IMG/VR virus record: IMGVR_UViG_3300010885_027838
Coordinates: 1-20,515 of that record
Source: a virus
Length of the DNA stretch: 20,515 nucleotides
Direction: 5' to 3' (one strand)
Shown here: piece after piece, positions 1,080-13,914 of the stretch
How positions within the stretch are numbered: the stretch's first letter is position 1
How the letters are laid out: each line of letters opens with the position of its first letter
Program-made: the position numbers and the translations under genes
Notes under the pieces: generated by a model
What the model was told of the DNA's origin: nothing
What the model saw: the letters and a program-made list of their open reading frames with translations, nothing else
Databases searched by the model: none

Positions 1080-2255
1080 CTATCTCCGCGACCATTTGAA
1101 GCCTGATGTACTGACGGTGTAGCGGTCCACCGTCGCCAGATTGGCGCGCGCCGCGATCAGGCCGGCGGCACTGGTGCGGACGGCCGCGTTGAGGATGCCG
1201 ACCCAGGCGCCTGGCACTGTGCCCAAGTTGGCTCCCGCTCCAGATGTCGAGCTGAGATCGGTCGGCGCAACATCGGCTTCGTCGGGACACATGACGCGGG
1301 CATAGATGTTGAGGGTGGCGTCGTAAATCGAAGCTGTGATATCTGCGAGGACGGAGAAATTTAGCGGAACGCTTATCGCATCCGTGCGCCGCGATGTGGT
1401 CAGCGTGTTGAGCAGGGAAACGTCAACACGGGGCGTCACCCATGCGAACTCGATCCCGCCGCCGGAAAGCTCGTAGGTTTTGAAGGGCACGATGGTTGCG
1501 CCAGACCGCTTGATCCAGCCGATAAGCCGCTTGTAGTTGTAGTTCGTCGGCATCGTCGGAGCCGTGTTCGAGGTCGAGAACAGCACATCGACGACGCCGG
1601 TATCCGAACGCTGGATGAGCCAGATGTAATAGTCAGTATCGGCAATCGCGCCAGTGTCGAGGCCGCCCTGCCCGCTGCCGACCACCCATGCTGCATCGAG
1701 GCGCTTGGTGGTCGCCGCCGCCAGCGTCAGCATTCGCAAGTTGGCACCGTCCATCGCGGAACCGACAGCGATGTCGATGTCGTTGGTCGCGTCAGCCACG
1801 TTGTTGGCGTAGGTGAGGCCCTGGATGGAACCGCGCGGGATGATCGGCGCCGCCCATGACGCATCGACGCCATCGGAGGTCAGAACATAGGTTGCGGCAC
1901 CGATGGCGAGGCGGCTGTAGCCCGAGGCGTCTCTGGTCAGCAGGTCGCCGCGCGTCGTGAGCGTGTCCGCAGCCCCTAGGCCCGAAATCGGATCAACCGT
2001 CCAGATCGTGTTGGCGTCCGCATCCTTCAGGATGACCTTGTAGTCGCCGGAGGTCAGGTAGATCGGACCGAACAGACCGTTCGCATCCGCCACCACAGGA
2101 TTTGCGTTGACGTTGCCGATCAGAAGATCGGCATTGGAATAGGTGTTTTTCGGCGTACTCGTCCCGGTGGTGTAGAAGTACAGCAGCGCCGCCGGGTAGG
2201 TCGTACCGTTGCCGGAAACCGGGGTAAAGCGCGGAGGGGTGAATATCGTGCTCAT
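1080..2255 (-). CDS. Phage tail fibre / tailspike-type protein (391 aa)
   Basis: The N-terminal ~95 residues carry the pattern common to many phage tail fibre head-binding regions: FTPPRFTPVSGNGTTYPAAL, then LYFYTTGT, NPVVADANGLFGPIYL, DYKVILKDADANTIWTVDP. The remainder is beta-rich and Gly/Thr/Ala-rich, consistent with a trimeric shaft and tip. The C-terminal half includes DTDYYIWLIQRSDTGVVDVL. The family attaches to the tail and contacts the cell surface. The ATG at 2255 overlaps the preceding ejection gene's stop by four bases (ATGA) and has a GAGGGA ribosome site. No pectate-lyase or endosialidase catalytic motif is evident, so I call it a fibre rather than an enzymatic spike. Confidence 0.85.
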   Translation of the reverse strand: MSTIFTPPRFTPVSGNGTTYPAALLYFYTTGTSTPKNTYSNADLLIGNVNANPVVADANGLFGPIYLTSGDYKVILKDADANTIWTVDPISGLGAADTLTTRGDLLTRDASGYSRLAIGAATYVLTSDGVDASWAAPIIPRGSIQGLTYANNVADATNDIDIAVGSAMDGANLRMLTLAAATTKRLDAAWVVGSGQGGLDTGAIADTDYYIWLIQRSDTGVVDVLFSTSNTAPTMPTNYNYKRLIGWIKRSGATIVPFKTYELSGGGIEFAWVTPRVDVSLLNTLTTSRRTDAISVPLNFSVLADITASIYDATLNIYARVMCPDEADVAPTDLSSTSGAGANLGTVPGAWVGILNAAVRTSAAGLIAARANLATVDRYTVSTSGFKWSRR

Positions 2256-4444
2256 CGTTCCCTCAGTGGATTGGGCTCGCTAAAGCCACCGCCTGCAGCG
2301 CCGGCAACGCCAGGGGAAAGGCGGGGACGGGCCTGCCGGGCCAGAAACGCCTCAACAAGCGAAAGGGCCTCAGCGTTCGCCGCCGGGCTTGGGTTGGCCA
2401 GCAGATCAGCCAAGCGGGCGCGCACGGGCTCGCTGGCCGCGTCAGTCTTCGCCATCACATCCTTGATGGAACGCCAGATGCCGAGAATATCTCCCCCAGA
2501 GGCAGGAGGGGCGCTCAGAGCGGTTTCGCGCACAAGGTTGGCGGCACGGTCGGCCGTTTCAGATCCCGCATTCACGCGGCTGTTTCCGGCGGCATACCGC
2601 AACTCAGCCCGACTGCGGCCCAGAATGTTTCCTGCGGTCTCTTGGTCGAAGATGCGGACAAGTTTGGATTGCTTGGCGTCGCTCTCGACGATGCTATCTG
2701 CGAGGCGGCGCGTGGACTTGGCGCCATCGAGCGCCGTGTCGCGCATGGTGTTTGCAGCGCCGACGCGGAGCGCCCGGAGCTGATCGGCGGTAGCCCTTGG
2801 CAATTCATCATGTAAGGCCGCATTCGAGGCCGCAACGCCTGCATCGCTCTGCCCGGAGCGCAGGAAATTCTGGCCGCGCGTAAGCCAACCTTCGCCGGTC
2901 CTTTTGTTGTAAAGGGAAACCGCTTCCCGGTACGCCGTGTCTGCTTCAGCAAGTGCTGGATTGGCGCGCTTCAGTTCGCGCACAAATTCATTGGAAGCAT
3001 CCTGCCACCAAGAAGCACCAGGAGCCGGCCTGCCGTTCGGGTCCATGCCGATGTTCTGGATGGCCCGCTTCACCTCGTGCATGATCTCGACGGGCGAAGC
3101 TGGCGTCCGGCTCATGCCGACGCGCGAGCCCTTTTCCTTGAGCATCACGGAGTCGATGGCCGCCTTAACCTCGGGGTTTTCGTACATCTGCATGAGACGT
3201 GGCGTCTGCTTCAGACCGGCCTCGTCCATTGCCCCGTAGGCCGTCGCCCCTACATGGCTCCTGTTGGCGTCCAGAAACCTGCGCGCATCGTAGATCGAGG
3301 GCACGTTTGCATCTTCACCCATGGCGTTGATGAACCGCTCGCCGGTCCGGGCGTTGCGGTTGGTGTAGGCCGTCGAATACTTGTTGGCCGCGTCGTTGCT
3401 CGTGAGCTTGCCCACCGTCGCTAGGCGCTCGGCGCCGCGTCCGGTATCCGCGACAAAAGCATCCTCTCCGAGAGTCGCGAGTTCATTGCGCGCGCGGCCG
3501 ACACCTCCATCTGAGGAGACGGCTTGTGCAAGGCGCCTGATCGCCGCGTCCTCCTCGATATTCCCGGCTCCACTGCGCGCTGCGTCCGCGAGCCTCGTCA
3601 GGAAGCCATCGCCCGCAACCTGCCCGCCCTCGGGAGCGGCAGCCGATAGAGAATTGGGCGTAACCTTCGGTGCGTATTTGTCAGCCACATCTGCGAGCCT
3701 GTTCAGGACGCGCGGCGCGGCCTTCTCGTAAAGGATGCTCGCGCCCTTTGCGACGACAGGAAGCGCGCCGCCAACAGCACCACCAACCACTGCGCCGGTC
3801 GTGGCGCCGCGCATCCGGTTATCGAAGCCGCCTTCGCCTTCTCCAAAACCTTGGGCACCACCGAGCAAAGCACCGCCGGCTGCGCCCTTGAGGACGTTTC
3901 TGACGAGGCCCGCGCCACCTCTGAGCAGAGTGCCGACGCCAGGGAGAGCAGACAGAGCCAGCCCGCCCGTGACGGTGCCCGCGATATTGCTCCCGGTTGA
4001 AAGGACGGGATTGCTTTCGGCGAAAGCCTTGCTCTTCGTGCGCTCCCTGTTCAGTTCCTCGTCGTACCGCTGATCGTAGGTCGGTGCCGTCGAGACGGTC
4101 TGGCCGGTCTTACCGAGCGACTTCTCAAAGGTGCTCGGGGCCATCATCCAATCAGAGAAGCCCGGCATGGCCGCGCGAACACTTGCGGCGAGTTCATCGC
4201 CTGCGCCAAGAGTGACGCCCTGCCCAAATGCCTGCGCCATGCCGTCAGAGACGGGCGCGGCTGGCGCAGCAGCGTCCTCGCCGCCCGCCTTAAAATACGA
4301 GCGGTTCAGCGGATTGCCCATTCTGCGCTTGCCACTGGGCTGCTGTGACGGCTCCCAATCCTGAACGCCGCCCAGCAGCATAGGCACGTCATCAAACGTG
4401 CCGCCCTTCTCGGCGAGAAATGGAACGTCATCGAACGCACCCAT
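2252..4444 (-). CDS. Large internal virion / DNA ejection protein with glycine-zipper segment (730 aa)
   Basis: This is probably the gp20-like ejection protein, expected to be packaged in the capsid and expelled into the envelope ahead of the DNA. Residues 4-8 and 17-21 are a duplicated FDDVP motif. Residues 68-93 include AFGQGVTLGAGDELAASVRA, a pattern I associate with phage internal proteins. Residues ~151-235 are a long Gly/Ala-rich region of zipper repeats (GGALLGG, GAVVGGAVGGAL) able to form membrane helices. From ~240 on it is helical and charged, with WWQDASNEFVRELKRANPAL near 480-500. It is much longer than P22 gp20 (about 471 aa). The start overlaps the upstream stop by one base (TAATG) and has an AAGGCAG ribosome site. 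Family-level assignment is firm; the exact role is inferred from position. Confidence 0.75.
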   Translation of the reverse strand: MGAFDDVPFLAEKGGTFDDVPMLLGGVQDWEPSQQPSGKRRMGNPLNRSYFKAGGEDAAAPAAPVSDGMAQAFGQGVTLGAGDELAASVRAAMPGFSDWMMAPSTFEKSLGKTGQTVSTAPTYDQRYDEELNRERTKSKAFAESNPVLSTGSNIAGTVTGGLALSALPGVGTLLRGGAGLVRNVLKGAAGGALLGGAQGFGEGEGGFDNRMRGATTGAVVGGAVGGALPVVAKGASILYEKAAPRVLNRLADVADKYAPKVTPNSLSAAAPEGGQVAGDGFLTRLADAARSGAGNIEEDAAIRRLAQAVSSDGGVGRARNELATLGEDAFVADTGRGAERLATVGKLTSNDAANKYSTAYTNRNARTGERFINAMGEDANVPSIYDARRFLDANRSHVGATAYGAMDEAGLKQTPRLMQMYENPEVKAAIDSVMLKEKGSRVGMSRTPASPVEIMHEVKRAIQNIGMDPNGRPAPGASWWQDASNEFVRELKRANPALAEADTAYREAVSLYNKRTGEGWLTRGQNFLRSGQSDAGVAASNAALHDELPRATADQLRALRVGAANTMRDTALDGAKSTRRLADSIVESDAKQSKLVRIFDQETAGNILGRSRAELRYAAGNSRVNAGSETADRAANLVRETALSAPPASGGDILGIWRSIKDVMAKTDAASEPVRARLADLLANPSPAANAEALSLVEAFLARQARPRLSPGVAGAAGGGFSEPNPLRER

Positions 4445-6501
4445 TATTCTGCCTTGTCCAATTCAGCGGGATCAACGCCAAGCTGCTTGAGTTTCGCGCG
4501 CACTCCAGCGGGATCGCGGCCCTCTCGGATTGCCTGCTGCGCGTCGAAGATGAGGCGCCCCTTATCCGCGCTATTAGCGGGAGGACCACCATCCCCAGCG
4601 GGGGCGGCGGCCTTCGGCGGCTCGTAGCGCTCGCCTCTCTTCAGAATTCCGGCCTTGACCATCATGGCCTCGACGACCTGCCGCCGATTCTCAGCCATCT
4701 GGGCAATGAGTTCTTTATTGGTCGCCTGACCGGGCTGCGGGAAGTACTGCTTGTCGGCGCTCATGAACTCGGACGTCCCGATAACAGCACCGGACTCGTC
4801 ACGAAGCTGTGAGTTCATGAAGTTACGCTTGGCCTGCTCGAAACGCTGATATTCTGAAGACTGCGCGTAGTTTCCCAGCCCACCCGGAAGCGCCTCCAAG
4901 AAGCGACCCTTGCTAGATGTGCCCTGAATGGCGAGATCGTTCAGAAGCGTATTCGCCGTCTCCATGCGCTGCGAGAAGCCGTAAGCCTTGGCTTGGGCCT
5001 CCGTCATCGGCTTCTCTTTGGTCGGCAGACCTTGGACCGGCGTAGCCGTGATCCCTCCGGGCGCGGCTGGGGCAACCGGAACGCCTTGGGGAGCCGGCGC
5101 AATGCCGGGCGAGGCGCCCTGCTGTGGCCCCCCCTGCGCGGAATATGTCGGCTGGCGCCAGCGCGACATGTCTTCCGCCGGGATCGTCGTGCCAGTTCCG
5201 GCGTCGAAATGCGGCCTGCCCAAATGATTGAACGCCGCCGCATATTCCGGCGTTGCAGCAAAGGCGGGGTCGTTCGCGCCCCGCACAAGGGCGTTGCGCG
5301 CCTGACTGTCCATGCCGTTGCCAGCGAACGGGCCGCCCATCCCAGCGCCCTGCTCCTTGGGTTTGGGCATGGGCCACAGAATGGGAGCCCCGCCGCCGGG
5401 CGGCATGACCTGCACGTAGCCCGGCACTGGAGAGAAGATTTTCCCGTTTTGTGTTCCGATCCTATAGCCGGCCGGAAGCTCCACGCCCTTCAACAATTCA
5501 TGCGGGATAGGCTGCCCTTGTCCGGGCTGAACGGGAATGCCTGATCCGTCGCCGGCCGGAGGAGGATCACCGCCCTGTGGCACGCCTGGGCCGCCCGGCT
5601 GCGCGGTCTGCGCCTGCAGGTTCGATTTTACCTTGGTGATGTAGTTGCGCGTCTCGGCCGGCAGCGCGGCAGGATTCGCGCCCGCGGCCACCCACTTCTC
5701 CGCGTTACCCGGCCCCCAATTATACGCAACGAGCGCGTGATCGAGGTTGCCGAATCTGTCCATCTGCTGCTTGAGGTACGCGGTACCCTTGTTGATCGAC
5801 TGGCCGACATCGAAGCGGTTCGTGACGCCGAGATCGGCGGCAGTGCCCGGCATGATCTGCATGACACCGCCGGCACCCGCCGGAGAAACGGCGTTGGGGT
5901 TGAACATGCTTTCCGTGCCTGCCACGGCCTTGATGAGCGGGATTGGGACTCCGTATGTCGTCGAGGCGGCGTTAAAGTGCTGGTCCCATTCAGCCGGAGC
6001 GGTCTTGCCGTCCGCTGTCGGCGGCCCATACGTCACGCCCTCGCCAGACCGCCTTAAATGCTCGGCAATGGGCGTCGCCTTATCGACGTTGAACTTCACC
6101 CATCCGGAATCGTACTGCGTCGGCCACTGGCTCACGTTCCGGCCAGAGGCTTCTGCTTCCTGCCTCACGCGATCGTAGAGCTGCCGCTGTGCCTCGGGCG
6201 GCGCATTGAGGATCGCCATGCCGTTTTGGGTGATGAAATCCGCGTCTTCCTTGACCTTGGCCCGCTTGTTCGCGTCCATCGAGTTGATGAGCGTCTGGAT
6301 CTTTATCAACGTGTCGGGGTGGCGTGTGGCGAGTTCGTTCTGCGCATTGGGATCGCCCGACAGAGCGCGCTGAATGAACGGTGCCGCCGACTTCCGGGCG
6401 TCACTTTCCTCCCGCAAAAGCGCATTCCGTTCGTCGCTCTGATTCAACTGCATAAGCGGGGCAAGCGTGCCGGCGACGTTCGGGAAAATGATCCCGCTCA
6501 A
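4444..6501 (-). CDS. Ejected lytic transglycosylase, gp16-like (685 aa)
   Basis: Residues ~170-295 form a soluble lytic transglycosylase domain. The catalytic Glu is at about residue 197 (AVAGTESMFNPNA), followed by GAGGVMQIMPGTA (210-222) and ALVAYNWGPG (256-265). The family cleaves peptidoglycan to open a passage for phage DNA. Helical sequence precedes the domain. A long Gly/Pro/Gln-rich linker (~300-490) follows it, then another helical, charged region to the C-terminus. Start choice: the codon is TTG at 6501, overlapping the upstream TGA as TTGA. No in-frame ATG occurs upstream before a stop, and the next downstream Met is residue 17. It sits between two other ejection genes, matching the P22 gp7/gp16/gp20 set. 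Length is slightly above P22 gp16 (about 609 aa). Confidence 0.9.
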   Translation of the reverse strand: MSGIIFPNVAGTLAPLMQLNQSDERNALLREESDARKSAAPFIQRALSGDPNAQNELATRHPDTLIKIQTLINSMDANKRAKVKEDADFITQNGMAILNAPPEAQRQLYDRVRQEAEASGRNVSQWPTQYDSGWVKFNVDKATPIAEHLRRSGEGVTYGPPTADGKTAPAEWDQHFNAASTTYGVPIPLIKAVAGTESMFNPNAVSPAGAGGVMQIMPGTAADLGVTNRFDVGQSINKGTAYLKQQMDRFGNLDHALVAYNWGPGNAEKWVAAGANPAALPAETRNYITKVKSNLQAQTAQPGGPGVPQGGDPPPAGDGSGIPVQPGQGQPIPHELLKGVELPAGYRIGTQNGKIFSPVPGYVQVMPPGGGAPILWPMPKPKEQGAGMGGPFAGNGMDSQARNALVRGANDPAFAATPEYAAAFNHLGRPHFDAGTGTTIPAEDMSRWRQPTYSAQGGPQQGASPGIAPAPQGVPVAPAAPGGITATPVQGLPTKEKPMTEAQAKAYGFSQRMETANTLLNDLAIQGTSSKGRFLEALPGGLGNYAQSSEYQRFEQAKRNFMNSQLRDESGAVIGTSEFMSADKQYFPQPGQATNKELIAQMAENRRQVVEAMMVKAGILKRGERYEPPKAAAPAGDGGPPANSADKGRLIFDAQQAIREGRDPAGVRAKLKQLGVDPAELDKAE

Positions 6502-7175
6502 GTGAATATCCCATTCTTCTTGTTGTAGCCGAGATATGCGCCGGCCATCACGTTGTTGACGCCCGAGCTGATACCGCTCGCCAGCGCATTCGCACCTGCC
6601 GCATAGCCGGAGCCGCGCGCCGCGCCGCCCTGCGTCAAATAGTTGCCACCTTGGCCGATCAACCCGGCAGCGGTGCCGCTGGCCTGAGCCTGGGCACTGT
6701 TACCCTGCCCAGCAGCAGTCGAGAGCTGGTTGAAATAGTTTCCGTATTCCTCGCTGGCGGCGCCCTGCCCGAACGCTGTGATGGCCTTGGTCTGCGCGCC
6801 CGAGCGCACCATGCCCTTTGACGCCGCCGAGCGATCAAGCGCCCTGCCACCCTCGTCGAGGCGCCACTGGTAGCCGGGGCTGGTCTCGAAATCCGCCAGC
6901 GCGGTCTTCTGCAGGCCCTTGGCGTTGGCGGCATCGACCCAGTACTGCCCGTAGTCGTTGCCGCGCTGCGTCAGCTCGCCGAGGCCGAGGAGCTGGGTGA
7001 TCTTGCCCAAGGCCGCCGTGCCGGAGCCCGTCCATGGCGATGCCTGCGCGCGAGCTTTGCCGGCCTCCGTAATGTTCTGTTGATTGGCTTGGTTGGCGGC
7101 GCCCCACGCCATCTCGGCGCCCTGCTGGGCGCCTTGCTGTCCAATCATGCCGGCAAGAGTGGAGAAAATCGCCAT
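6498..7175 (-). CDS. gp7-like DNA injection protein (225 aa)
   Basis: The protein contains ALADFETSPGYQWRLDEGGR, ALDRSAASKGMVRSGAQ and AASEEYGNYFNQL, a conserved order in phage DNA transfer or internal virion proteins. It is Ala/Gly/Gln-rich and starts MAIFSTLAGMIGQQGAQQGA, with a short hydrophobic N-terminus that could be processed or insert in membrane. I chose the ATG at 7175 because it shares one base with the upstream TGA (TGATG) and has a nearby AAGG. An in-frame ATG at 7190 would add five residues. Length matches P22 gp7 (about 229 aa). It lies immediately before the transglycosylase gene, overlapping it by four bases. Together these probably form the ejection apparatus. Confidence 0.8.
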   Translation of the reverse strand: MAIFSTLAGMIGQQGAQQGAEMAWGAANQANQQNITEAGKARAQASPWTGSGTAALGKITQLLGLGELTQRGNDYGQYWVDAANAKGLQKTALADFETSPGYQWRLDEGGRALDRSAASKGMVRSGAQTKAITAFGQGAASEEYGNYFNQLSTAAGQGNSAQAQASGTAAGLIGQGGNYLTQGGAARGSGYAAGANALASGISSGVNNVMAGAYLGYNKKNGIFT

Positions 7176-7618
7176 CAGAGCGCCTTGCAAAACGTGTGTT
7201 CGGCAAGGGCGTAGCCTGCTCGTTTGTAAACCTGAGCAAGCGCCTCGTGACGGAGACCATGTTCCGCCACCATGCCGAAGAATTTTACGTTGCGCGCCTT
7301 GGCGGCGGATTCGAGCTGCGTAAGAAGCTCTGCGCCAGCACCTTTCCGGTGGGCTGGCTTAATATACAGCCAAAGCTCCTGACCAATAAAGACTTTTTTA
7401 TTCCAATAAGCGGGCGAGGAAATCGCGCTGGCCATGCCAACCGCTTCTCCTCCCTTGTCGAGCACCAAGAGGATGCCGTTTTTCATCAATGCCGAGGCGG
7501 TTTCAGTGAACGAATCGCGACAGAACTTGGCGCGCGCCGCCCATCCCGCCTCTGCAAAAAACGCCTCGCCCATCTCAACGATGGCGGCCATATCGCGCGG
7601 TTCTGCGGGGCGAATCAC
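7175..7618 (-). CDS. GNAT family N-acetyltransferase (147 aa)
   Basis: The protein has the GNAT fold signature: N-terminal MIRPAEPRDMAAIVEMGEAF, a central strand (LWLYIKPAH, ~82-90), the acetyl-CoA pyrophosphate loop RKGAGAELL (~91-99), and a C-terminal YKRAGYALAEHTFCK. The family transfers acetyl groups from acetyl-CoA to amines; the substrate here is unknown. The start is GTG at 7618, chosen because MIRPAEPRD is a typical GNAT opening. The gene overlaps the injection-protein gene by one base (TGATG), so the two are co-translated. Upstream lies the plus-strand HNH cassette. It may modify a virion or host protein, but nothing in the sequence decides between these. Confidence 0.85.
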   Translation of the reverse strand: MIRPAEPRDMAAIVEMGEAFFAEAGWAARAKFCRDSFTETASALMKNGILLVLDKGGEAVGMASAISSPAYWNKKVFIGQELWLYIKPAHRKGAGAELLTQLESAAKARNVKFFGMVAEHGLRHEALAQVYKRAGYALAEHTFCKAL

Positions 7619-8250: not shown

Positions 8251-8516
8251 ATCACTTTCCATGCGCTGCCGTTGCCGATCGCCTGCACGATGCTGGCCCC
8301 GCCGCCGGCCAACGTGTTGCCGACCGTCACCACGCTCGAATCGCCGCAGATGACCGTGTGCCCAAGCGTCGGCGTCATCGGGACGATCTCGGCGTAGGTG
8401 TAGATCGTGCGCGGCAAGACGCCGCTTCCGATTCCCTGCAGGAAGCCGATCAGGGCGCGCGTGGCCGTGCCGTCCCTGTTGACGACGGCCGCCTTTGTGC
8501 TGAGCGGCGCGGTCAT
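8247..8516 (-). CDS. Small putative tail-associated protein (89 aa)
   Basis: The protein begins MTAPLSTKAAVVNRDGTATR and ends GNTLAGGGASIVQAIGNGSAWKVI. Gly-rich C-termini ending in an aromatic followed by (R/K)VI are frequent in phage fibre-like proteins. The ATG overlaps the stop of the gp10-like gene as ATGA. It occupies the slot where P22 carries the tail needle (gp26), but it is far shorter and lacks the heptad repeats of a needle. I regard it as a minor tail component of unknown role. Its 3' end meets the plus-strand HNH gene, which separates it from the GNAT gene. Confidence 0.65.
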   Translation of the reverse strand: MTAPLSTKAAVVNRDGTATRALIGFLQGIGSGVLPRTIYTYAEIVPMTPTLGHTVICGDSSVVTVGNTLAGGGASIVQAIGNGSAWKVI

Positions 8517-9934
8517 CGGCTGAGCGGCTTAATCTCGGTCCGCATGCCGTAGAAAGCAGCCTTGACCGGGTCACTGAGCGATATTTCGACGGTGCGCTGC
8601 CTGAAGGCCCCAAGCCGCCTCCACATGGCACGGATGAGGCGGACGCCCATGAGGCCAAGGCTTGCCCTGCGCTCATTGCTCCAAGTGCTGCCGCCGTCGT
8701 CTGTGTAGCGCATCATCAATTCGGGATCGGAACCCTGCCCGGTCGAGATACCGACGCCCAATTCGCACTCGATCTCGAAGTCCTGCATGATCGCGCGCCT
8801 GCCCTCGGCGAAGAACGGCAGGCCGACGATCACGCGGCGGATGGGGCTGCCAAGGTCGTCATAGGTGTCGAGATCCAGCTCCGCGACGTTGCCGGCCTGA
8901 AGTCCCACCAGCGTCTTGCCGAAGGCAGCGAAGATGCACTGCACGTCCCAAATCGCGGGGGTGAGCGACGTGCCGGTCTGTCGCTCGTGCCAGATCGGGA
9001 TTCCCGCCACCGCAGAAGCCGCCGGATCGAAGCAGAACGTGCGATTTAGGCTGGGCAGGGTGAGCACGTAGAAATGATGACCGCCCTGAAAGTACGTCAT
9101 CCCATAGGCGTCGCTCACGGTACCGGTCCGCAGGATTTCCTCGATGGCGTGCGTCGAGATGCGCGCCGGCTGGTAGCCCTCGGCCCTGTAGATGATGCGG
9201 TCGTTGCCCAGCCAAAAAACGGAGTTGTCCATCTTGGCGGGGCTGAGCGCCGCAGCACAGCCGCGTTCGAGAAGGGCGCCTGGCACCCGCTCCAGCGGAA
9301 ACGGTGACGCGCCGGTATTGACCCACACCTCGACGGTGTCGGTGCCGAACAGCCAGCACTCGCGATGATCAACCAGAACGCCTATCAAGCCGTCCGGGCT
9401 GCTTTCCGCGCTAGCGAAGTCGAGGGCGTCGAAGGTCGAGAAGTCGAGAAGGCCGGAAAGGTAGAACTGGCCCGACCCATCGTTGCGCGTGCCCACCGCA
9501 TAGCCGTCGATGTAGGAGATGCTGGAAAAGCCCTCGGCCGGGTAGCCCGCGGATATGACCTTGGTGATGGTCGTGCCCACGATCACAAACATATCCGGCA
9601 CGACCAGCAGGCCGATCTGTGTCCCGTTGTTGATGAGCGTCGCCGCTCCGGTCGTCGGGATCAGGTCGCCGGCACACGGCGTCGCCATCATGTCCTCATC
9701 GACCCGGTACAGCGTGGCGCCGGACAGGATGTACGCATAGCCCTGCGCCTCAAGGCCTGCCCTGATCCGGTCGCCGCCGATGGTGCCCCATTCCTTTTGG
9801 CCCGGCGTGCCGTACAGAACGACCTTTGTGCGCGAGCCCTCGGGGGCCGCCTCGGCGTAGAGGTTCACCACGCGGGCCGCATTGACGGGGCGGCTGCGCT
9901 GCTGGGAGAAGCCTAGGGCGAGCGGGCCGCGCAT
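8513..9934 (-). CDS. P22 gp10-like tail hub / packaged-DNA stabilization protein (473 aa)
   Basis: The N-terminus MRGPLALGFSQQRSRPVNAA with VNLYAEAAPEGS and LYGTPGQKEW matches the opening of gp10-type proteins, which close the head-tail channel and bind spikes. Later segments such as FWLGNDRIIYRAEGYQPARI, FYVLTLPSLNRTFCFD, PIWHERQ and RYTDDGGSTWSNERRASLG recur in the family. Length is nearly identical to P22 gp10 (about 472 aa). I set the start at 9934; an in-frame extension to 10105 reads as non-coding and crosses a plus-strand ORF. The ribosome site is weak (GTGGGG). It follows a 196-base gap on this strand and overlaps the 89-aa gene by four bases. Confidence 0.85.
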   Translation of the reverse strand: MRGPLALGFSQQRSRPVNAARVVNLYAEAAPEGSRTKVVLYGTPGQKEWGTIGGDRIRAGLEAQGYAYILSGATLYRVDEDMMATPCAGDLIPTTGAATLINNGTQIGLLVVPDMFVIVGTTITKVISAGYPAEGFSSISYIDGYAVGTRNDGSGQFYLSGLLDFSTFDALDFASAESSPDGLIGVLVDHRECWLFGTDTVEVWVNTGASPFPLERVPGALLERGCAAALSPAKMDNSVFWLGNDRIIYRAEGYQPARISTHAIEEILRTGTVSDAYGMTYFQGGHHFYVLTLPSLNRTFCFDPAASAVAGIPIWHERQTGTSLTPAIWDVQCIFAAFGKTLVGLQAGNVAELDLDTYDDLGSPIRRVIVGLPFFAEGRRAIMQDFEIECELGVGISTGQGSDPELMMRYTDDGGSTWSNERRASLGLMGVRLIRAMWRRLGAFRQRTVEISLSDPVKAAFYGMRTEIKPLSR

Positions 9935-9953
9935 CAATATGCCCCACGCCCTA

Positions 9954-9982
9954 TGGACAAAAACAGGCCCAAATAGCAATAT
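9954..9982 (+). promoter_or_regulatory. Possible promoter for the 53-aa plus-strand ORF
   Basis: TGGACA at 9954-9959 matches the -35 consensus at five of six bases. A 17-base spacer leads to CAATAT at 9977-9982, which matches the -10 consensus at three of six. The predicted transcript start would fall at or next to the ATG at 9989. The ORF lacks a recognisable ribosome site, so a leaderless mRNA would fit. The -10 is weak, so this is tentative. Confidence 0.25.
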
Positions 9983-9988
9983 TCCGAT

Positions 9989-10150
9989 ATGGAAGAGCCC
10001 ATCCCAGACATCGTCGCCCGGCTGCGCCAGACGTTCGACCTCGACAATACAGACCCCTTGGACGCCATCGAGGTGTACATGGACGAGCGAGAGGAAGCGG
10101 CGCAAGAAATCGAGCGGCTACGGAAGATCATCAGTAATCCCCCTGCGTAG
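9989..10150 (+). CDS. Small charged protein (53 aa), probable plus-strand moron
   Basis: The peptide opens MEEPIPDIVARLRQTFDLDN and ends with an acidic/basic helix (EREEAAQEIERLRKI) that could form a short coiled coil. Small phage proteins with a DIVxRLR start and an E(I)ERLR end are familiar from phages of alphaproteobacteria, mostly of unknown function. Codons favour G/C at the third position, as in neighbouring genes. It runs opposite to the late operon. It lies in the only sizeable gap there, starts 54 bases from the gp10-like gene and overlaps the 3' end of the 500-aa gene by 20 bases. No ribosome site is evident. It may be an independently expressed moron. Confidence 0.6.
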   Translation: MEEPIPDIVARLRQTFDLDNTDPLDAIEVYMDEREEAAQEIERLRKIISNPPA

Positions 10151-11633
10151 TGGCGTTCTGATCGCGCGTTGCCTCTGCTGCCGCAGCGGTACCCGCTGCT
10201 GCCCCGGCGATGCCGTACATGGGGATTTCGCCGCGAACCATGCGCTTTACTACTTCGGCGGGTGACAGTCCCGTTAGTCGACTCGTCCGCTCAATACTCT
10301 CGTTGATGTTGGTGATCATGGGCGTGGCGTTGTAGCCAGCCTTCCCCCTCGCCTGTTCCTTCATATCCTTCGCGCCGGCCCACCCGACTTCCTGAAAAAA
10401 GCGCGGGTCCACGCCTCGCTCTCTAGCAATAGTACTGAGCGCATTTTCAAAATGCCCGTAGGTTCCCGGCGGCGGAACCGTCATTTTCGGATCGAAAAGA
10501 CCAGACATCTGCTCGTCTATGGTCGCGCCTTTGGTGTCGCCTAAGAAATTGCGGGAAAAGTTGTACCGCTTGGGGTTTTCCGGCGTGACGCCCTGGTCCT
10601 TCATCACCATTTTGTCGAACTGCTTCATGTTGCCGCCCGCGTAGCGCCCGCCGATTGGGAATGGGTATTCATACGAATTAGCGGGAATGCTGTTCCCGCC
10701 GGCCTTCAGGTAGTTGCCGTAATGCGCCATCAAGAAATTAGAGGTGGGGTCTGCGCCGCCTGTCGTTGCCGACATGGCGTCGGCGAACCGTTCTTTGAAC
10801 GCCAGCCGCCCTGCCTTCGGGCCGTACTCTTTGATGTACTCGGCCTCCAATTGGCCCATCTGGTACCAGTTGCCGGAGTCCTTTACTTGGAGCATTCCAC
10901 GGTCGTAGGCATCGTTCAGACCCTTTACCGCAGCGGGATTATTGGCGATGGCGTCGTACTTGGCCCGCGTCCCCTCCTGCGCCATACGGACATCAGCCGT
11001 CTCGACCCTCGCGGGGTATTTGCTGACATCTGCGTCAAACCGCTTTTCCGGGGGGAAATATGGCGTGTAGTTGCCGGCTTCGATGTCCTTCTGGACAGCC
11101 GAGCGAGATTTCTGAAAGTCTAACGCCTCTGTAGAAAGACTCTTTTGCAAGAAATCCTTTTTCTTATTTGGGTCATGTGCGAGGACGGGCGGGGCTATCT
11201 CCGGGTAACGATCCGCCGCCCACGGGTACTTGCCTAGAGGCGTTAGCGGGTTCGTGCCCTTCGTGATAAGTGCGGAACTTGGCACGGCCTCAACCACCGC
11301 CTTGTTCGCAACATTGAGCGCGGTTGCGCCCTTACCGGCGAGCCGCGTGCCCGGCACAACACCAGCCGCAGCCGCCAGCATGGTGGCAACGCCGCCCGCC
11401 GCGTCCCAGCCCCGCCCCTGCATCAGAGCGTTCATTGTCTCGCCGCTCGCGTCTACGGCGTCACGCACCGCCGCGCCCGGCGTTAGTTCAGCCACAGCAG
11501 CAGGGACGCTGGAATATGCCCGCCGCGCTTCCGGGGGAAGCATTCGCCACGCCAGCACAAGCGGGTTCGTCTCGGTATTCGCCGCAGCGTCAACCGCCCT
11601 GCCTAGCCAATTTCGGGGCTTGGGGTCGGCCAT
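10131..11633 (-). CDS. Large phage protein with two Ala/Gly-rich hydrophobic segments and a conserved-looking core (500 aa)
   Basis: It lies between the gp4-like and gp10-like genes, which are adjacent in P22. It begins MADPKPRNWLGRAVDAAANT. Residues ~77-98 and ~472-487 are Ala/Gly-rich and hydrophobic, like the zipper segments of ejection proteins. The core (~220-425) carries RFADAMSATTGGADPTSNFL, then NFSRNFLGDTKGATID, then ENALSTIARERGVDPRFFQE and VGWAGAKD. This order resembles phage domains with an A-x-S-P-x-x-N segment, an N-F-x-N-x-x-GD-x-x-x-x-TID segment and a final Q-x-x-x-W, sometimes regarded as DNA-glycosylase-like. That link is from memory and weak. The start overlaps the upstream stop (TGATG). 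Function is unknown; packaging in the virion is plausible. Confidence 0.7.
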   Translation of the reverse strand: MADPKPRNWLGRAVDAAANTETNPLVLAWRMLPPEARRAYSSVPAAVAELTPGAAVRDAVDASGETMNALMQGRGWDAAGGVATMLAAAAGVVPGTRLAGKGATALNVANKAVVEAVPSSALITKGTNPLTPLGKYPWAADRYPEIAPPVLAHDPNKKKDFLQKSLSTEALDFQKSRSAVQKDIEAGNYTPYFPPEKRFDADVSKYPARVETADVRMAQEGTRAKYDAIANNPAAVKGLNDAYDRGMLQVKDSGNWYQMGQLEAEYIKEYGPKAGRLAFKERFADAMSATTGGADPTSNFLMAHYGNYLKAGGNSIPANSYEYPFPIGGRYAGGNMKQFDKMVMKDQGVTPENPKRYNFSRNFLGDTKGATIDEQMSGLFDPKMTVPPPGTYGHFENALSTIARERGVDPRFFQEVGWAGAKDMKEQARGKAGYNATPMITNINESIERTSRLTGLSPAEVVKRMVRGEIPMYGIAGAAAGTAAAAEATRDQNATTQGDY

Positions 11634-12037
11634 CAGCCGTTGGAAAAGTTAAAGCGGCCGTACTGCCGGCGGCGAAGGGCCATTTCCGGGGCACTTGTGA
11701 TCGGCACGTAGTAGAACGCTTGAAGCGCCATCTTGGCCTTGTGGATCGCGTCGCGGTCGTCGTCGCTGAGTGGCACGCCGTAAGCGCCCGCAATCTCGCG
11801 CTGCAGCATCAGGCCGACGTTGCGAAGCTGTCCGTCCGGCACGTTGACGGTGGTGTCGAGGCTCGCGAGGTCGGTGTGCGCGTAGCGGATGCCCTCCGAC
11901 TCGAAACCCGCCAACAGGTCGTTGAGCTTCCTGAAGCCGTAGTTGCCCTGCGTGTCGGTCATGGATTCCTGATCGGCCACGACGCCCAAATCCTGCAGGG
12001 CCTCGGAAATCAGCGTGCGTGCGGTCTTAATGGACAT
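11633..12037 (-). CDS. P22 gp4-like head-tail connector (134 aa)
   Basis: The protein starts MSIKTARTLISEALQDLGVV and continues with FRKLNDLLAGFESEGI, VPDGQLRNVGLMLQREIAGA, YGVPLSD and a basic, aromatic C-terminus (RRRQYGRFNFSNG). This matches the gp4-type accessory factor that binds beneath the portal and seals DNA after packaging. It is somewhat shorter than P22 gp4 (about 166 aa). I placed the start at 12037, not at the in-frame extension to 12259. It has an excellent AGGAG site seven bases upstream, shares a base with the previous stop (TGATG), and the extension overlaps another gene. It is coupled to the 500-aa gene downstream. Confidence 0.85.
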   Translation of the reverse strand: MSIKTARTLISEALQDLGVVADQESMTDTQGNYGFRKLNDLLAGFESEGIRYAHTDLASLDTTVNVPDGQLRNVGLMLQREIAGAYGVPLSDDDRDAIHKAKMALQAFYYVPITSAPEMALRRRQYGRFNFSNG

Positions 12038-12366
12038 CACGAACTCCTGAGTGCAGGGCGGATATGCAGACGACCAGACACCACGACGACGTTGTTGGAC
12101 GTGACGGCCTGGTGCAGGAAATCTCCCGCAAGATTGATTGTGTCGGCGTTCGTGAGCGCGACCGTGAAGGAACCAGCGGACGCTGAAACCGTGGTGCCCG
12201 TCACCGAGAAAACCGGCGTGTCTCTGTTCGGATCCCACGGCGCGCGGCCCACCCGCCACGAGACAGTGAGCCCCGACAGGCTCTGCACCGCGTTGTTGGG
12301 ATCGCGGGCGTAGAGCGTGAAGGTGCGCGTCTCGCCGGCCATCATGTCGAGGTTTTGCACATTCAC
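12037..12366 (-). CDS. Small beta-sandwich-like phage structural protein (109 aa)
   Basis: The protein opens MNVQNLDMMAGETRTFTLYA and is predicted as alternating beta strands: LSGLTVSWRVGR, TPVFSVTGTTV, GSFTVALTNADTINLAGDF, VVVVSGRLHIRP. That layout resembles the Ig-like domain seen in BppU-type and other phage neck or baseplate proteins. The start is GTG at 12366, overlapping the previous stop as GTGA; Met8 and Met9 are alternatives. It lies directly before the gp4-like gene and is coupled to it, so a head-tail joining or decoration role is likely. No enzymatic motif is present. Confidence 0.7.
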   Translation of the reverse strand: MNVQNLDMMAGETRTFTLYARDPNNAVQSLSGLTVSWRVGRAPWDPNRDTPVFSVTGTTVSASAGSFTVALTNADTINLAGDFLHQAVTSNNVVVVSGRLHIRPALRSS

Positions 12367-12725
12367 GCGGCGACCCTCGGCCGACCGGGCTTGCGCTTCA
12401 CGAGATCGGCCACCGTCTCGGCACCGATGGCGTGAGCCGCTTCAACGAACGTCGGCGCCATGTCAGGCGAGTCGTTCCAGCCCTCCGGTACATCCGCGGC
12501 CGACTGAAACACCCGGCGCTGCCCATTCGGGCCGTAACGCCACGAGGGCCACGCCTGATGCACATAAGCCGCCGTTGCGATTGGCGACTTCACGTCCTCG
12601 CGGGCGCGCACCGCGTCCATGGCCGAAAAAACCGCTGTAACGATGGCCTCGGCCGACATCTTGGTGCGGCTGATCTTGTCGAAAGCGAAAATGCCGGCCT
12701 CAACCATAGCAACGCTGATTTTCAT
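12363..12725 (-). CDS. Hypothetical phage protein with AT-hook-like C-terminus (120 aa)
   Basis: The N-terminal ~55 residues (MKISVAMVEAGIFAFDKISR onward) look helical. A middle segment has WRYGPNGQRRVFQSA followed by DVPEGWNDSP. The pattern Y-G-x-x-G, F, V-P-x-G-W-x-D-x-P recurs in small phage head-region proteins of unknown role. The C-terminus is basic, with KRKPGRPR, which resembles the GRP core of an AT-hook that grips the DNA minor groove. The ATG shares a base with the methyltransferase stop (TAATG) and the gene overlaps the next by four bases. It may bind DNA at the neck or act in head completion; both are inference. Confidence 0.65.
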   Translation of the reverse strand: MKISVAMVEAGIFAFDKISRTKMSAEAIVTAVFSAMDAVRAREDVKSPIATAAYVHQAWPSWRYGPNGQRRVFQSAADVPEGWNDSPDMAPTFVEAAHAIGAETVADLVKRKPGRPRVAA

Positions 12726-13237
12726 TATGTTACCTTTTGCAAGACGAGGCGCAGCGATACGTTGTCATCCTCGTTGGACATGATGCGGAAATCGCCCCGC
12801 CAAACGTGACGGTAGTCAGTGCAAGAGGTTGTGCCGACCTGCGCGTAATGGTTTTGCGAAAGAAACCAAAAACATTCCAGCGGCAGGGCGCGAGTGTGGC
12901 CGGGGTCGCCCCAAACCCACGGGCCGGCCATGCTGGGCACAGTGATGAATACCAAACCGCCGGGCTTCAGGACGCGATGCAGTTCCGCAAACTGGCCAAA
13001 GAACCCCCGCCAATCGCCTTGGCGCCCGAAATGCTCCAGCACTTCAAACGCGTAGATTTCATCAAATTCCGCGTCCTCAAATGGATACGGAAGCGCATCA
13101 AGATCGTGAACCACATCGCAGCCGGTGGACGGGTCAATATCCAAGGTGACGAGATCTCCCCACTGGTCATCTCCGGCCACCCCCATGCGTTTCTCACGCG
13201 AGTTTCCGCACCCGAGCAAAAGATGCCGCTTGGTCAT
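12725..13237 (-). CDS. SAM-dependent methyltransferase, class I (170 aa)
   Basis: Motif I is LLLGCGNS (residues 6-12), followed by an acidic strand end TLDIDP (Asp33/Asp35), AFEVLEHF (63-70) and the RVLKPGGLVFITVPS strand (88-102). This is the Rossmann methyltransferase layout that uses S-adenosylmethionine. No DPPY-type DNA amino-methylase motif or PC motif of cytosine methylases is present, so DNA methylation is unlikely. The start at 13237 overlaps the glycosyltransferase stop as ATGA; a longer in-frame start at 13390 lies inside that gene and looks like noise. Coupling to a glycosyltransferase suggests modification of a sugar or of a virion surface group. The substrate cannot be read from the sequence. 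Confidence 0.85.
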   Translation of the reverse strand: MTKRHLLLGCGNSREKRMGVAGDDQWGDLVTLDIDPSTGCDVVHDLDALPYPFEDAEFDEIYAFEVLEHFGRQGDWRGFFGQFAELHRVLKPGGLVFITVPSMAGPWVWGDPGHTRALPLECFWFLSQNHYAQVGTTSCTDYRHVWRGDFRIMSNEDDNVSLRLVLQKVT

Positions 13238-13914
13238 GCGGCCATTTTCATTTGATCGCGAAGCCACTGCCCCCAATTGCCGGTGTAAGTTTGGGTTGGG
13301 CTGGTGTGGCGTAGTTCCATCTCGGCAAATGCCTTGATCTGACCGCCAGCTTCGCGCCACAGGCGGCAGAACTCGACATCCTCGCCCCAATATTCGCCGT
13401 CTCGCACTTCGGTCTTGAAGTACGCCTTCAGAGGGCCGTCTTCGTGGGCGTAGGTCGGTACATCCGACAAAGCCTCAAATACGAGGCGGTTGATCCGCAT
13501 GAATCCAGTCGGGACCATCTCACATGCAATCAGGCCCTCAGCGTCGGACCAAATCTCGCCCGCCATAGGGTTGACGGGCCATTCAGCGGGGTCTTTCTTT
13601 TTCGGATAGATGCCAGCCACTAGCGGCTGCGTGACCTGGCAGAGCCTCAACAGGCTTTCCGGCTCAAATCCGACATCGCCATCGAGGAAAATCATGTCCG
13701 TCGCTGTACCGCGCATAAACCGACCGGCAAGCACGTTGCGAACGTGATCTAGGTAGCAGCAGCCTTGTAGAACATCGACATCCTCGATCTTAATCCCCGC
13801 CGCATCGAGCGCCATGACCCCAGCGGCAAGGGACCGCTGGGCATCATCGACATAAGAATCGAGCGTATAGGCCGGCACGGCAATACGGACGCTCCGTGCC
13901 GGCCCAACACGCAT
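13234..13914 (-). CDS. GT-A type glycosyltransferase-like protein (226 aa)
   Basis: The sequence has the GT-A pattern: RIAVPAYTLDS near the N-terminus, DMIFLDGDVGFEPE with the likely metal-binding DGD at 78-80, VAGIYPKKK (99-107), VPTGFMRINR (134-143), GEDVEFCRLWREAGG (177-191), and a late His in ELRHTSPTQTYTG. The family transfers sugars from nucleotide-sugar donors. The gene begins directly after the TAA of the small capsid-associated gene, with no ribosome site, so it probably depends on translational coupling. A strong inverted repeat lies just inside the 5' end. Its co-translation with the methyltransferase suggests a small glycan-modification module in the virion operon. The acceptor is unknown. 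Confidence 0.82.
   Translation of the reverse strand: MRVGPARSVRIAVPAYTLDSYVDDAQRSLAAGVMALDAAGIKIEDVDVLQGCCYLDHVRNVLAGRFMRGTATDMIFLDGDVGFEPESLLRLCQVTQPLVAGIYPKKKDPAEWPVNPMAGEIWSDAEGLIACEMVPTGFMRINRLVFEALSDVPTYAHEDGPLKAYFKTEVRDGEYWGEDVEFCRLWREAGGQIKAFAEMELRHTSPTQTYTGNWGQWLRDQMKMAA
13870..13904 (-). promoter_or_regulatory. Perfect 11-bp inverted repeat inside the glycosyltransferase 5' end
   Basis: GGCCGGCACGG and CCGTGCCGGCC are exact reverse complements separated by 13 bases. They begin about 10 bases after the glycosyltransferase start codon on the transcript strand. The predicted RNA hairpin is very GC-rich. It has no following U-tract, so it is not a typical intrinsic terminator. It could slow ribosomes, mark an RNase processing site, or reduce expression of the enzyme relative to the capsid genes upstream. 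Confidence 0.5.

Follow-up and report, generated by a model that had tools for sequence, protein, structure and literature searches.

A structural-module gene of a virus fragment encodes a protein with a predicted, diverged HhH-GPD-type DNA glycosylase fold

A 500 aa protein encoded among the head and tail genes of a short-tailed phage (virus record IMGVR_UViG_3300010885_027838) has a core that, in a predicted structure, is well supported as a diverged HhH-GPD-type glycosylase fold retaining a putative catalytic pair. The window analysed is the whole 20,515 nucleotide stretch (positions 1 to 20,515 of the record). We infer the activity, catalysis, substrate, packaging and ejection of this protein, and the explanation favoured here, to which we give a probability of roughly 60%, is that it is a packaged and ejected base-excision-like enzyme with a diverged DNA glycosylase/AP-lyase core of the HhH-GPD type, sister to the Pfam family DUF7178 (PF23802).

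The gene is on the minus strand at positions 10131–11633, with an ATG start at 11633, and matches exactly the 500 aa ORF listed in the initial annotation; the plus-strand frame over the same interval is interrupted by stops. The TGATG coupling to a gp4-like gene that had been described was seen at the junction, which reads ...GGCTGATGGCC... with overlapping stop and start. The flanking genes were also as described. Upstream is a gp4-like head-tail adaptor gene (Ad3, 11633–12259, minus strand; phrog_637, E 8e-6) with a true start likely near 12043, and downstream a gp10-like head closure gene (Hc3, 8513–10105, minus strand; phrog_578, E 2e-103; Pfam Phage_stabilise, 1.3e-6) with a true start likely near 9934. 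Genes in the window were named from Pfam and PHROG scans, and those without a family scan from their sequence. The minus-strand order is TerS-like, TerL, portal, scaffold-like, major-capsid-like, several small genes (including methyltransferase-like and glycosyltransferase-like genes), gp4-like adaptor, glycosylase-like gene, gp10-like head closure and a GNAT-like gene, followed by a P22 gp7-like DNA ejection protein (6498–7190; phrog_598, E 5e-24), a 685 aa protein with an SLT transglycosylase domain (4444–6501; Pfam SLT, 3.5e-27) and a 730 aa protein matching phrog_5880 in PHROG (2252–4444). The last two are probably ejection proteins, and phrog_5880 genes also adjoin relatives of the glycosylase-like gene in other contigs.

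Three further features of this region were recorded. The methyltransferase-like and glycosyltransferase-like genes, which overlap each other (12725–13914, minus strand) between the capsid-like and gp4-like genes, are an unusual cargo for a P22-type head module. The GNAT-like acetyltransferase gene (7175–7618, minus strand) separates the gp10-like region from the gp7-like ejection gene. A small plus-strand ORF (9989–10150, 53 aa, MEEPIPDIVARLRQTFDL...EIERLRKIISNPPA) in the gap before the gp10-like gene overlaps the 3′ end of the glycosylase-like gene by 20 bp and could be a real, very small phage gene encoded on the other strand.

The protein is made up of four parts. Residues 1–130 (11244–11633) are variable, were modelled by AF2 with pLDDT values of only 28–62 in blocks of ten, and include an Ala/Gly-rich hydrophobic segment. 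Residues 131–232 (10938–11243) form a conserved, family-specific leader domain of two strands and a helix with a QKDIEAGNYTPYF motif, as judged from the alignment and the AF2 model; a relative in Microcystis phage MJing1 aligns only from residue 225 onward, after most of this domain. The helical, glycosylase-like core spans residues 233–439 (10317–10937; pLDDT about 95) and is followed by a C-terminal part, residues 440–500 (10131–10316), in which conserved helices continue to about residue 478 and give way to a disordered, Ala-rich tail. The motifs quoted in the initial annotation, SATTGGADPTSNF (288–300), NFSRNFLGDTKGATID (358–373) and QEVGW (414–418), are all present, as are its two Gly/Ala hydrophobic segments (about 78–94 and 473–487). 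Among 25 stand-alone relatives checked, 16 have similar segments on the N-terminal side of the core and 12 have them on the C-terminal side.

In the full-length AF2 model, confidence was high from about residue 131 to 478, and the core model had a pLDDT of 94.7 and a pTM of 0.92. When the PDB was searched with Foldseek, the top match was the Ogg2 of Thermotoga, with weak E-values of 0.065 for the whole model and 0.025 for the core. Comparison of the core model using VIA-align, where a middling Z can come from a common helical arrangement, placed the Ogg2 enzymes first (Tm, Z 9.7 over 179 residues with rmsd 3.6; Mj, 9.3; Sso, 8.8), their rows covering 167–179 residues, nearly all of Ogg2, at rmsd 3.5–3.7. 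AGOG (Z 6.3), hOGG1 (6.0), MutY (4.7) and EndoIII (4.1) came further down. HhH-GPD glycosylases accounted for 14 of the top 15 rows (Z 9.7 to 3.6) and the best unrelated row scored 2.6. With the full-length model the Ogg2 enzymes again led. The suggestion of a glycosylase-like domain was therefore upheld by the fold search on the predicted structure, in which the best matches were 8-oxoguanine and related HhH-GPD DNA glycosylases; outcomes that would have spoken against it, namely the lack of a helix-hairpin-helix-like or enzyme-like fold or a match to an ordinary structural family, were looked for and not found.

The modelled core is all-helical with a helix-hairpin-helix beside the putative active site. 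The canonical Gly-x-Gly hairpin (LPGVG or KGIG) before the Lys is absent, with NPKR in its place here and mostly [NQT]PKR in the family, and because of this replacement the core is called HhH-GPD-like and not a canonical member. Between the hairpin and the Asp there is one invariant Gly (G365) and no conserved Pro. The chain runs about 60 residues beyond the point where the C-terminus of Ogg2 aligns, and the protein was not filed as Ogg2 because the C-terminal lysine that reads 8-oxoG in Ogg2 is absent. A direct hhalign comparison of the glycosylase-like family with Ogg2-like proteins was not significant (E 0.14), and searching the PDB by sequence with the family alignments gave no real match. 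DUF7178 together with the MJing1 protein matched the Ogg2-like proteins with E 1.6e-5 (7.4e-7 in a control run in which shuffles reached 0.18 at best). The sequence link of the 500 aa protein to Ogg2 is one that runs through DUF7178 and the fold.

The catalytic pair of MjaOgg is Lys129 and Asp147, 18 residues apart, and its base-stacking residue is His133 (PMC5069365). The other Ogg2 enzymes among the PDB matches have the same Lys/Asp layout. K355 (codon 10569–10571, minus strand), which aligns with the catalytic Lys of the Ogg2-like proteins, and D373 (codon 10515–10517, minus strand), which aligns with MjaOgg Asp147, are also 18 residues apart and are proposed as the Schiff-base lysine and the catalytic aspartate. 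Both are invariant in all 46 sequences of the core alignment (at most 93% identical), and a Lys 18 residues before the Asp is a feature of the bifunctional (lyase) subclass. The same pair and a late Trp (W418) are invariant in seven intermediates, nine DUF7178 proteins and four Ogg2-like proteins. In the AF2 model, K355 is the first residue of the second helix in a helix-loop-helix (332–344, 355–363) and D373 precedes helix 374–380. This is how an HhH-GPD site should be arranged, although the hairpin Gly-x-Gly is gone. F359 occupies K+4, the position of MjaOgg His133. As the search that gave the largest set of loci (128) used the TIDEQM pattern, conservation of Q375 and D373 in that set is partly selected. 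Members of the 41-locus set, obtained with QKDIEA and GNYTPYF patterns only, likewise keep the K and D, as do intermediates found by other patterns.

The initial annotation had correctly pointed to TIDEQM in place of TxDxHA and had raised the possibility of a divergent, inactive domain. The residue lost is the His at D+2, and not a catalytic one: this position is His in Ogg2 and the intermediates, His or often Trp in DUF7178 and Gln throughout the family of the 500 aa protein. Because only this His became Gln, while K355 and D373 are invariant, inactivity is unsupported and is not favoured. A version of the same idea is that a dead glycosylase fold, no longer cutting bases, has been retained as a clamp with a DNA-binding or structural role that coats or guides DNA during packaging and ejection, or pads the neck beside the portal. 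The loss of the hairpin glycines, the change at D+2, and the location of the gene between connector and tail-hub genes here and beside the portal elsewhere would fit. However, K355 and D373 are invariant across four divergent groups, and a protein serving purely as a scaffold would have no need of the two together; a module whose position varies between phages and whose fusion partners are enzymes is unlike a fixed structural part, making a clamp unlikely.

The relationship to DUF7178 emerged from a weak tblastn match of residues 355–429 to gp203 of Gordonia phage Yvonnetastic, a member of this Pfam family. A search with gp203 gave 132 phage records, and several, including actinophage records, call the gene ‘glycosylase’ or ‘N-glycosylase/DNA lyase’. 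DUF7178 is the DNA-glycosylase-like phage domain to which the initial annotation alluded. Comparison of the glycosylase-like family with DUF7178 using hhalign gave E 2.9e-6 with 29 sequences and 6.8e-8 with 46, over 174 columns, the best E among reversed and 30 column-shuffled controls being 0.037. The 500 aa protein itself falls below the DUF7178 gathering cut-off and is unlisted at E up to 1, and was not filed as DUF7178 for this reason; its family was filed as a sister to DUF7178. The MJing1 protein passes the cut-off (29.1 versus 27 bits) and matches the glycosylase-like family with an hhalign E of 5.5e-14 (BLASTP 3e-8 in one single comparison), and a protein of Roseobacter phage CRP-901 is a second intermediate. 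A literature search found no paper naming DUF7178 and none on MJing1. Two DUF7178-type genes, PP885686.1 gp111 and PP978820.1 gp106, are annotated as ‘portal protein’ and ‘glycosyltransferase’, respectively, and these labels are probably misannotations.

When viral contigs were scanned with the 500 aa protein alone, three loci were found, and the same single-protein search of genome contigs found no relatives. Alignment-based scans of viral contigs gave 41 loci and then 128, of which 80 were kept. In total, the scans yielded 108 copies of the gene, a figure that counts redundant contigs, and retention of the core at more than 100 homologous loci in viral contigs is more than would be expected by chance. 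An alignment search covering the genomes of about 85,000 species of bacteria and archaea found one MAG contig, in which the gene follows a portal gene, and the family is therefore essentially confined to phages. The 500 aa protein matched no family over the cut-off in Pfam, PHROG or NCBIfam; the NCBIfam scan gave no match of any kind, and no ejection-protein family was matched in the Pfam and PHROG scans. Low-scoring matches to the Pfam GP11 baseplate wedge (E 0.002, 18 bits against a cut-off of 27, over 53 residues only), phrog_13499 (E 0.4) and PADLOC JetB (0.017, judged to be chance) were rejected.

Across 50 surveyed fragments, the gene lay among late or structural genes in every case with enough identifiable neighbours. 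The portal was recognised in 23, and in 19 of these the glycosylase-like gene was no more than two genes away. In some relatives, of 850–1,729 aa, the module is joined to ART-PolyVal, PBECR5, LPD23, SLT transglycosylase or cell wall hydrolase domains, and several of the polyvalent-type fusions are encoded right after the portal, including a 1,729 aa protein with ART-PolyVal, PBECR5 and the glycosylase-like module (L048, 5924–11110). At least two disparate effector domains in one polypeptide were found in L048 and another relative (L051), but only one enzyme-like domain could be recognised in the 500 aa protein. The idea of an ordinary P22 neck component was set aside because the position of the gene varies freely between phages. 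The earlier proposal of a fourth ejected protein is compatible with the gene order and with the SLT, cell-wall hydrolase, ART-PolyVal and PBECR5 fusions, though not proven by them. Phage polyvalent proteins have been inferred to be packaged and injected (PMC5512222). As some relatives are fused to enzymes thought to be injected by phages, the 500 aa protein may be an injected DNA-acting tool that serves early in infection.

The stand-alone DUF7178 genes of actinophages and T7-like phages were not seen beside structural genes. Several deposited records of T7-like marine phages and of Anabaena phage A-4L have them in the first 0–3 kb; should these records begin at the left end of the genome, the genes would sit where the earliest genes enter the cell. 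Both this placement and placement in a virion module would be appropriate for an enzyme required as soon as infection begins. The single-domain DUF7178 genes, found among small non-structural genes in actinophages and near one end of T7-like records, could instead point to an ordinary DNA repair enzyme that the phage expresses but does not package, its gene being in the late module by chance. This is rather improbable, as the family of the 500 aa protein is among late or structural genes where neighbours are recognisable, some relatives are fused to wall-degrading domains typical of virions, and the hydrophobic Gly/Ala flanks recur. A DNA hypermodification enzyme that alters or exchanges phage DNA bases, like the phage PaMx11 glycinyltransferase PUGT, is very improbable: PUGT (8z2n, Z 3.8) was the only non-glycosylase in the top 15 structural rows and methyltransferase-like and glycosyltransferase-like genes are nearby, but PUGT ranked under MutY and each of the three Ogg classes, the families scanned in the window (the record being a fragment) included no recognisable base-hypermodification pathway, the Lys/Asp pair retains glycosylase/lyase spacing, and fusions to host-directed and wall-degrading domains suggest delivery and not replication-coupled modification.

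According to the favoured explanation of an ejected base-excision-like enzyme, the 500 aa protein would be a late, virion-associated protein packaged with the gp7-like, SLT and phrog_5880 ejection proteins, and would enter the cell together with the genome. The helix-hairpin-helix region (helices 332–344 and 355–363) would bind double-stranded DNA and a base would be flipped into a pocket of which F359 and W418 are probably part. D373 would act as the catalytic carboxylate when the glycosidic bond is broken, and a Schiff base formed by K355 may nick the backbone. The DNA target at the start of infection could be the incoming genome, cleared of base lesions, or host DNA, which would be attacked or edited. 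The fusion partners lean towards host conflict and the Ogg-like fold towards lesions. A more specific possibility, held only tentatively, is that the packaged glycosylase/AP lyase removes particular bases, either normal or modified, from host or defence-modified DNA.

DNA glycosylases are known from repair and, recently, also from bacterial anti-phage defence. A glycosylase encoded among particle genes, with relatives fused to ADP-ribosyltransferase, RNase-like and wall-degrading domains, would mean base excision delivered during infection, and an injected base-excision effector would be a new enzymatic class among polyvalent and ejected proteins. DUF7178, an unnamed family of many actinophages and T7-like phages, would gain a concrete biochemistry in the form of a Lys/Asp pair for which a Schiff-base intermediate is predicted. 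Other glycosylase genes were met at plasmid loci. On Rhizobium and Agrobacterium plasmids (L123 and L124, 1–1526 in each), an Ogg2-like N-glycosylase/DNA lyase gene is flanked by genes for a TIR-domain protein and a 7-cyano-7-deazaguanine synthase, and the gene ends overlap; the glycosylase had no PADLOC match and the locus looks like an undescribed defence-type operon. On Pseudomonas plasmids (L125, L126), an 8-oxoguanine-glycosylase-like gene is directly 3′ of a DNA adenine methylase gene, with start and stop overlapping.

Among known systems, the Ogg2 enzymes (MjaOgg, SsoOgg, Tm1821) are the best structural matches, with the same 18-residue Lys/Asp spacing and a conserved late Trp, but they are only about 9–13% identical to the 500 aa protein, which lacks the Gly-x-Gly hairpin and the C-terminal lysine sensor, has Gln for His at D+2 and has the leader domain in addition. 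DUF7178 (Yvonnetastic gp203, Mycobacterium phage Sheen gp85) has a common core of WY, [AL][ST]..N, K...F..N..G......D and Q...W. Its members are stand-alone proteins of about 200 aa encoded outside the structural module, with H or W where the 500 aa protein has Q at D+2, and without the leader domain and hydrophobic flanks. The P22-type ejection proteins gp7, gp16 and gp20 belong to the same gene module and have Gly/Ala-rich hydrophobic segments like those of the 500 aa protein; they are not known as DNA glycosylases. Some relatives join the module to domains of the polyvalent proteins (Iyer et al. 2017; ART-PolyVal, PBECR, LPD). The word ‘glycosylase’ is absent from the main text of that 2017 survey (PMC5512222), and a literature search found no paper joining a DNA glycosylase with polyvalent proteins, ART-PolyVal and ejection. 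Brig1 is host-encoded, belongs to the uracil-DNA-glycosylase superfamily and has phage DNA as its target. It and other antiphage DNA glycosylases (PMC11078745) use base excision in phage-host conflict, as is proposed here, but unlike Brig1 the 500 aa protein is phage-encoded and has a predicted HhH-GPD-like fold.
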